In this document: positions 43,304-45,594 of the stretch, one piece after another | How the letters are laid out: the number at the start of each line of letters is the position of its first letter | Numbering within the stretch: the stretch's first letter is position 1 | From: a bacterium SCSIO 12643 | Lineage (GTDB): Bacteria > Bacteroidota > Bacteroidia > Flavobacteriales_G > Salibacteraceae | Direction: 5' to 3' | Length of the DNA: 64,000 nt | NCBI GenBank assembly: GCA_024398135.1 | Contig: CP073750.1 | Span: 992,001-1,056,000, forward strand | Translations under genes and position numbers: made by a program | The notes under the pieces: generated by a model | Told to the model about the DNA's origin: nothing | The model's database searches: none | Seen by the model: only the letters and a program-made list of their open reading frames with translations

Positions 43304-44419
43304 ATGTCCAACAAAAGAGATTACTACGAGGTTTTAGGAGTTGATAAAAATGCGGATGATAAGCAAATCAAAAAAGCTTATCGCAAAATGGCCATTAAAT
43401 ATCACCCGGATAAAAACCCTGATGATGCTTCAGCTGAGGCCAAGTTTAAAGAGGCAGCAGAGGCATATGAGGTACTAAGCGATGGTAATAAACGTGCACG
43501 CTATGATCAATTTGGTCATGCAGGTATGGGAGGCGCAGCCGGAGGTGGTTTCGGTGGAGGCATGAACATGGAAGACATCTTTTCTCAATTCGGTGACATT
43601 TTTGGAGGCGGATTCGGAGGTGGATTTGGCGGAGGAGGCCAAAGAAGACGTGTGGTTAAAGGATCTAACTTACGTGTTCGTATCTCATTGACTTTAGAAG
43701 ATGTCGCCAACGGTGTACATAAAAAAATCAAGGTTAAGAAACTTGTAAATGCTGAAGGGACCACAACCAAAACCTGTACACAATGTAATGGTACCGGTCA
43801 AATCACCAGAGTAACCAGTACCTTCCTTGGACAAATGCAAACAGCATCTACTTGTCCGACTTGTCATGGTGACGGTCAAATGATTGATCAAAAAGCGCCA
43901 GGATCAGATGCGAATGGTCAGGTTAAAAAGGATGATGTGATTGAAGTAGATATTCCAGCAGGAGTTGAAGACGGAATGCAATTGTCTGTACGCGGAGCCG
44001 GTAACGAAGGTCCAAAAGGAGGAGTTCCAGGAGATTTATTAGTGGTTATTGAAGTTAAGGAACATCCTGAATTGGTTAGAGAAGGTAGAAACTTGCACTA
44101 CGATCTATTCCTAAACTTTGCAGATGTTGCTTTAGGAACAAGTGTTCAGGTCCCTACGTCTTCTGGTAAAGTGAAGATCAATATTCCTGAAGGTACTGAA
44201 GCTGGTAAAATTCTTCGTTTAAGAGGTAAAGGTTTACCTGAAGTAAATTCATACGGAAACGGGGATCTTCTAATCCATGTAAATGTTTGGACCCCTAAGA
44301 AACTAACTAAAGAAGAAAAAGCAATGATGGAAAAACTTAGAGATTCTGAGAATTTCCAACCGAAAACAAGCTCGGATCAAAAGAGTTTCTTTTCGAGAAT
44401 GAAAGACTACTTCAGTTAA
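43304..44419 (+). CDS. dnaJ: Chaperone DnaJ with a single zinc site
   Basis: Hsp40 co-chaperone of DnaK, 371 residues. It has a J domain with HPD at 34-36, a Gly/Phe-rich linker (about 71-112), a zinc-finger-like region and the C-terminal substrate-binding domains. Only two of the usual four CxxCxGxG motifs remain: C158-C161 (CTQCNGTG) and C184-C187 (CPTCHGDG). The positions of motifs I and IV read VNAEGTT and APGSDANG. In E. coli DnaJ motifs I and IV form zinc centre I, and II and III form centre II, so this protein keeps only centre II. I recall similar DnaJ proteins in other Flavobacteriia, so this is a lineage trait and not a mutation here. Confidence 0.95.
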
Positions 44420-44447
44420 TTCGTTAATAGATAATTATCTATCCGTT

Positions 44448-44478
44448 TTGATTAAATTAAAATAGGATTATATATTTG
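44448..44478 (+). promoter_or_regulatory. Promoter of the predicted small RNA
   Basis: TTG (44448-44450), 20 bases, TATATTTG (44471-44478). The predicted +1 (about 44483) coincides with the first G of the 5' hairpin GAGCG-TTATA-CGCTC. Confidence 0.65.
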
Positions 44479-44482
44479 TTTC

Positions 44483-44550
44483 GAGCGTTATACGCTCCAA
44501 TCAATCAATATGAATTAAAATCCCCGGTTCTTCGACTGGGGATTTTTTAT
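44483..44550 (+). ncRNA. Predicted small RNA downstream of dnaJ
   Basis: About 68 bases bounded by a good promoter and an intrinsic terminator inside the 233-base gap between dnaJ and the ABC transporter. The layout is a 5' hairpin GAGCG-TTATA-CGCTC (44483-44497), an unpaired A/U-rich linker containing CAATCAATCAAT, then the terminator hairpin (44519-44544) and T-run. The linker could pair with target mRNAs. It contains an ATG-AAT-TAA mini-frame (44510-44518) that is probably coincidental. Comparison with Bacteroidota small-RNA families in Rfam such as Flavo-1 is the obvious test; I cannot say whether it matches. An alternative is that the terminator simply serves dnaJ. Confidence 0.5.
44517..44548 (+). 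terminator. Terminator of grpE-dnaJ and of the small RNA
   Basis: AATCCCCGGT (44519-44528) pairs with ACTGGGGATT (44535-44544) around loop TCTTCG (one G-T pair), followed by TTTT at 44545-44548 (part of a six-T run starting at 44543). Confidence 0.85.
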
Positions 44551-44614
44551 TTAACCGTGTATCCTCGTTAATCTGCATTCGTAATAAAAACCTTTAGCAT
44601 TAGGTTTACTTCTT

Positions 44615-44622
44615 TACATTTG
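44615..44622 (+). promoter_or_regulatory. -7 box of the ABC exporter operon
   Basis: TACATTTG with predicted +1 near 44627 and a 26-base leader before the ATG at 44653. The -33 region (TTT at 19 bases) is a near miss. Confidence 0.45.
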
Positions 44623-44652
44623 AAACCAAATTAATTTACGAATTGTTGCTAC

Positions 44653-45594
44653 ATGAATAATATTCTGGAGACCCAAAACCTCATAAAAGATTATGCAGGA
44701 CACAAGGCACTAAATCAGGTATCCATTGAAGTTCCCAAAGGAAGTATCTTCGGTTTACTTGGTCCCAACGGAGCCGGAAAAACCACGTTAATCAGAATCA
44801 TCAATCAAATTACCATGCCCGATTCGGGAACGGTGTTATTCAATCAGGAAAACATTGAACCGAAACATCGCGCGCTTATCGGCTATTTACCGGAAGAAAG
44901 AGGTTTATACCGTAAAATGAAAGTGGGCGAACAATGTTTGTATCTCGCCCAATTAAAAGGTATGAGCTATGCGGACGCCAAGAAAAAATTAAAATACTGG
45001 TTTGAAAAGTTTGAAATCGTTGGTTGGTGGGATAAAAAAGTAGAAGAGCTTTCAAAAGGAATGGCCCAAAAAATTCAGTTTATTGTTACTGTATTACACG
45101 AACCGGAACTTCTCATTTTGGACGAACCTTTTAGTGGTTTTGACCCAATCAACACCAATCTGATCAAGTCAGAAATTATGCAACTGAATGAAAATGGGAC
45201 TACCATCATTTTCTCTACACACAACATGGCTTCTGTGGAAGAAATTTGTCAGGATATCGCTTTGATCAATCACTCTCAGAAAATCCTTTCGGGAAAAATG
45301 AAAGATCTAAAAAATGATTTCAAAACCAATACTTATGAAATTGTATTTAAAGGCAGTCTGTTGAAATTCACCAATGCCCTATGGACAGGTGCAGAACTCA
45401 TTGACTCTACGGAAATCGAACCTGAACACTTTTCAGCTACAATTAAACTTCTTAACAAAACCACTACAAATGATTTATTGAACGGGCTTATTCCACACGT
45501 TCAAATTCAAGGTCTAAAAGAAGTTCTTCCTTCAATGAATGACATTTTTATTCAAGCAGTTTCTAATCCTCAAACGCAATCAGAAATAGCATAG
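44653..45594 (+). CDS. ABC transporter ATP-binding protein
   Basis: Cytosolic ATPase of an ABC-2 type exporter, 313 residues. Walker A is GPNGAGKTT (37-45), the signature is LSKGMAQK (133-140, replacing LSGGQ as in NatA/YhaQ-like exporters), Walker B LLILDEPFSGFDP (from 153) and the switch His in FSTHNMASVE. A C-terminal ~90-residue domain typical of this subfamily follows. It pairs with the permease two bases downstream. The substrate is unknown; relatives export sodium or peptides. Confidence 0.93.
   Translation: MNNILETQNLIKDYAGHKALNQVSIEVPKGSIFGLLGPNGAGKTTLIRIINQITMPDSGTVLFNQENIEPKHRALIGYLPEERGLYRKMKVGEQCLYLAQLKGMSYADAKKKLKYWFEKFEIVGWWDKKVEELSKGMAQKIQFIVTVLHEPELLILDEPFSGFDPINTNLIKSEIMQLNENGTTIIFSTHNMASVEEICQDIALINHSQKILSGKMKDLKNDFKTNTYEIVFKGSLLKFTNALWTGAELIDSTEIEPEHFSATIKLLNKTTTNDLLNGLIPHVQIQGLKEVLPSMNDIFIQAVSNPQTQSEIA

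Follow-up and report, generated by a model that had tools for sequence, protein, structure and literature searches.

Does the spacer between dnaJ and a downstream ABC transporter operon in bacterium SCSIO 12643 encode a small RNA with its own promoter and terminator, as an initial annotation made from the sequence alone proposed, or does it hold only the end of the heat-shock operon transcript? We analyzed the locus within a window of 64,000 nucleotides (contig CP073750.1, positions 992,001 to 1,056,000), and all features of the spacer and its flanking genes described below lie on the plus strand. The spacer combines a terminator that near certainly serves grpE–dnaJ with a lineage-specific sigma-A promoter predicted to give a 68-nt RNA, a combined reading whose chances we put at about even. 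A more ordinary possibility, that the segment is a dnaJ 3′ end whose promoter is fortuitous or a relic, is still a strong contender.

A predicted two-hairpin RNA downstream of dnaJ

The open reading frame list places dnaJ (371 aa, 43304–44419; DnaJ homologues in 99 of 100 relatives) upstream of an ABC transporter ATP-binding gene (313 aa, 44653–45594), a gene order kept across most of the order. Sigma-A promoters of Bacteroidota carry a TTG within a characteristic range of spacings from the −7 box, and sequence inspection and a pattern scan of the spacer reveal a TAnnTTTG-type −7 box, TATATTTG (44471–44478), with a −33 element TTG (44448–44450) at standard spacing, 20 nt upstream. The sigma-A box TAnnTTTG spans positions −12 to −5 in Flavobacterium psychrophilum (PMC9723704), which sets the predicted +1 on 44483, the first base of a 5′ hairpin that follows the box after the tetranucleotide TTTC. 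This register agrees with the initial annotation; the hairpin itself had been drawn as GAGCG-TTATA-CGCTC and folds instead as GAGCGT-TAT-ACGCTC (44483–44497), with a 6-bp stem and a 3-nt loop. A 19-nt linker, CAATCAATCAATATGAATT (44498–44516), is single-stranded in the predicted fold and leads, as proposed, into a strong intrinsic terminator (44517–44550) identified by both terminator scan and fold. The terminator, AAAATCCCCGGTT-CTTC-GACTGGGGATTTT, has a 13-bp stem at 44517–44546 with a 4-nt loop and a T-rich tail to 44550, and would be common to dnaJ and the putative RNA.

Promoter, fold and terminator jointly delimit a putative 68-nt two-hairpin RNA (44483–44550). Its sole AUG frame is AUG-AAU-UAA, a start-stop mini frame within the linker, which bears out the claim that no protein fits in the space. 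We considered this frame as a leader peptide and set it aside as unremarkable in an A+T-rich linker. The separate −7 box assigned to the ABC operon is present as TACATTTG at 44615–44622 in the pattern scan, and lacks a TTG at standard spacing. Upstream, a repeat search found a perfect 16-bp palindrome, ATAGATAATTATCTAT (44427–44442), in the interval between the dnaJ stop and the promoter. In the arrangement that we propose, grpE–dnaJ transcription would end at the terminator, in front of which a sigma-A promoter has been placed; polymerase starting at 44483 would produce a stable RNA of about 68 nt composed of the 5′ hairpin, the unstructured 19-nt linker and the terminator hairpin, and this RNA would stop before the ABC operon, which would use its own promoter at 44615. 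Promoter activity and accumulation of the transcript are inferred. Were the RNA made, the locus would be a small RNA gene tied to the heat-shock operon, in a lineage with hardly any known small RNAs.

Promoter and hairpin compared with chance

The pattern TTG-N17–23-TAnnTTTG occurs at only 8 sites on either strand of the 64-kb window, 5 of them, including the 44448 site, outside open reading frames of at least 90 aa. The initial description of TTG-N20-TATATTTG and of the +1 that it predicts proved exact to the base. The strongest rival explanation holds that the locus consists of the dnaJ terminator and a short 3′ UTR hairpin only, that the promoter is fortuitous or silent in an A+T-rich spacer, and that short RNAs from the locus, if any, arise by processing of the dnaJ 3′ end; we regard it as quite possible, at lower probability than the promoter-driven RNA. 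The −7 box taken by itself fits this rival, as TATATTTG occurs 7 times in the window, the number expected by chance. Two shuffling results stand against it: a full promoter arose in 0.15% of shuffles of 44420–44500 that kept dinucleotides (P = 0.0015), and a 6-bp hairpin whose first base lies no more than 1 nt from +1 arose in 0.6% of shuffles of the 38 nt after the box (P = 0.006). For the palindrome stretch at 44427–44442, shuffles yielded a 6-bp hairpin too often for significance (P = 0.29). The predicted folding energy of the 68-nt RNA is −25 kcal/mol (z = −5.9), owed mainly to the terminator, and the 5′ 33 nt of the putative RNA folded alone give z = −3.3.

We also counted pairs of box and terminator in 864 kb, comprising the window and 800 kb of the same genome, with 146 terminators and 201 boxes outside genes. 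Boxes lay 25–120 nt before a terminator in 6 of 201 cases, compared with 6 of 108, 3 of 108 and 11 of 201 for control patterns. Since these counts are at control level, such pairs as a class are noise, and their lack of enrichment is a further point for a terminator without a working promoter. Only two box-terminator units in the 864-kb sample have a TTG at proper spacing, one of which is the 44448 unit, and the latter stands out among these pairs by the combination of the TTG and a hairpin at +1. The other TTG-bearing unit lies on the minus strand of locus L197 at about 1610–1726 (genome 2,081,610–2,081,726), where TTG-N21-TACCTTTG precedes a terminator and could give an RNA of about 105 nt, without an Rfam match.

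Conservation in congeners

The comparison within the genus covers two genomes (L003 and L004), with DnaJ about 90% identical. Both carry a small hairpin that starts no more than about 14 nt after the dnaJ stop, followed by an A-rich linker and a terminator. An intrinsic terminator of grpE–dnaJ should show a G+C-rich stem of at least 5 bp and then a T run, downstream of the gene and retained in relatives, and the window terminator fits this description. The congener hairpins (GAAGT-TAT-ACTTC in L003 and AGGAG-TTTAT-CTCCT in L004) differ in stem from that of the window, share the loop GTTATAC in one case, and are individually not significant by shuffling (P = 0.20 and 0.13). Before the small hairpin there is neither room for nor trace of a promoter in either genome, and in both the ABC gene is preceded by a −7 box, TAAATTTGAAAC, the counterpart of the window box at 44615. 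The outcome that the initial annotation named as refuting the small RNA is thus seen by half: the promoter is absent from the congeners, and a small hairpin and the terminator are kept. In the genus, conservation holds for the terminator, perhaps for the 5′ hairpin, and not for the promoter. A hairpin and terminator right after the dnaJ stop without a promoter are what a plain dnaJ 3′ end predicts. An ordinary heat-shock-operon terminator or 3′ UTR likewise has a stem and T tail directly after dnaJ that is kept in the genus; to this the window unit adds a good promoter in exact register with the 5′ hairpin. Because its close relatives lack the promoter, we regard the candidate RNA as plausible but unproven and lineage-specific.

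The window hairpin is also the inner part of an imperfect 29-bp inverted repeat found by repeat search (44476–44504), which extends the hairpin into the −7 box. With 11 of 13 pairs matched and its centre at +8, this repeat could be a candidate DNA operator at which a repressor covers the start site. Neither the repeat nor the 5′ hairpin has further copies in the genome, however, and the outer part of the repeat is absent in the congeners, so that we consider an operator very unlikely; a read-through hairpin is a possible alternative for the same repeat.

Searches for known families returned no relative of the unit. Comparison with Rfam, Flavo-1 included, had been suggested in the initial annotation and gave no match to the candidate RNA at the gathering threshold across the whole window; at E ≤ 10, the interval 44400–44680 gave only chance-level matches to unrelated families, which distinguishes the unit from the flavobacterial small RNA family Flavo-1 at either threshold. 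The linker and the palindrome are not repeated in the genome, and two of the weak matches to the linker are ordinary gene starts. Similar DNA in plasmids was limited to coding sequence, for example that of dnaJ and ABC genes. Rfp18 of Flavobacterium psychrophilum is an independently transcribed short regulatory RNA described as having at least three stem-loops and predicted to pair by way of the third (PMC9723704), in contrast to the two hairpins predicted here. The promoter spacing, the register of +1 and hairpin, and the terminator are real and speak for the proposed small RNA; the missing congener promoter, sibling copies and Rfam match speak against it.

ABC promoters at the dnaJ terminator in other genera

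Outside the genus, the dnaJ–ABC junction reveals a second arrangement of box and terminator. Shortly before the ABC gene, genera g2, g6 and g10 of the same family, and also another family, f5, have a TAnnTTTG box whose end lies no more than 2 nt from the base of the terminator stem; in g7, g11 and g14 the box of this arrangement has one mismatch, and g12 looks alike by eye. The register is rare elsewhere: a 1.2-Mb sample drawn from three genomes has 328 other terminators, only 3 of which show it. The predicted +1 of these genera lies 3–6 nt inside the stem, within its 5′ arm, which suggests a mechanism in which dnaJ read-through meets the full terminator and RNA from the ABC promoter, made without the base of the stem, would escape. 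Junctions of this kind are found at L009, L010, L011, L013, L015, L016, L020 and L226, and with one box mismatch at L008, L018 and L142.

As the inverted repeat in the window reaches into the −7 box, an ABC promoter of this type may be the ancestor of the window promoter. Taken further, 44448–44478 could be a relic or second ABC promoter behind which a full terminator was gained, and the short RNA would on that account be an attenuated ABC leader. This explanation is consistent with the sister genera, where the dnaJ terminator stem directly follows the ABC −7 box, and with the matching extension of the window repeat. We nevertheless consider it improbable: in the window as in its congeners, a distinct −7 box for the ABC operon follows the terminator, in line with the initial annotation, the terminator that ends the RNA from 44483 is both strong and complete, and a search for an anti-terminator fold found none.

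A dnaJ-linked RNA-like family in Flavobacteriaceae

Most Flavobacteriaceae loci from our DnaJ search carry a unit after dnaJ composed of TAnnTTTG, a hairpin, CTTTTTCATAGCAATTTT and a terminator. In these units the hairpin begins at the predicted +1 and is followed by a single-stranded core, CUUUUUCAUAGCAAUUUU, and a terminator of the form CCCAC..GTGGG-T. The family shares the invariant core CTTTTTCATAGCAATTT, and 17 consecutive core columns are invariant among 23 aligned copies. All 23 copies have a 5′ hairpin of 5–13 bp, with 20 different stems, which starts 0 to +1 from the predicted +1 in nearly all copies with a recognised box; three long hairpins begin earlier, at −2 to −4. Members occur after dnaJ (L041, L044, L052, L056, L066, L068, L073, L075, L086, L094–L097, L102 and L111) and elsewhere in genomes (L256, L262, L267, L271, L277, L307 and L311); the unit is tandemly duplicated in L056 and L068, and genome G101 has about seven copies, one with a core mismatch, and G177 three. 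Rfam 15 at the gathering threshold gave no match except RNase P in ten Flavobacteriaceae loci. A survey of the DNA following dnaJ at 40 further loci of the class, in most cases a single one for each family, found neither the Flavobacteriaceae core nor an equivalent unit.

The core is the reverse complement of AAAATTGCTATGAAAAAG, and translation starts (AAAAUUGCUAUGAAAAAG) are complementary to it. Several core matches outside the family are gene starts reading ATG AAA AAG/AAA (for example L278, L280, L310 and L313), and because these matches fall exactly on gene starts, they point to antisense pairing of the core with translation starts. The units appear to form an undescribed multicopy family of small RNA-like elements with a core complementary to the starts of signal-peptide-like genes.

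The window unit shares with these units its place directly downstream of dnaJ, the TAnnTTTG box, a hairpin of variable stem at +1 (offset 0 in the window), a single-stranded stretch of about 20 nt and a terminator, and in L086 and L096 the next gene is an ABC gene, as in the window; this likeness counts in favour of the window RNA. The Flavobacteriaceae units have the core CTTTTTCATAGCAATTT and can reach about seven copies per genome, and both traits are missing from the window unit: the core is absent from it and does not exceed chance frequency in its genome and order, and the sibling copies known for some family members are lacking. Because the window and its order are without the core, comparison of the sequences identifies the window unit as analogous in anatomy and position, and as lying outside the family. 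That it is instead a diverged member of an ancient flavobacterial dnaJ-linked small RNA gene, which retained promoter, +1 hairpin and terminator but had its pairing core replaced and so acquired new targets in this lineage, we hold to be distinctly unlikely. Loci L253 and L276 contain the Flavobacteriaceae core in another context, within two longer repeats (GGGGGAGAAAGGAGAAAAAC ... TTTTCATAGCAATTT ... GCGGCTTCGAATATTAAACAA) separated by about 390 nt. If the window RNA has any function, the Flavobacteriaceae units after dnaJ suggest by analogy that base-pairing of its unstructured linker with mRNAs would be the likeliest, a trans-acting role that we offer as a doubtful guess.
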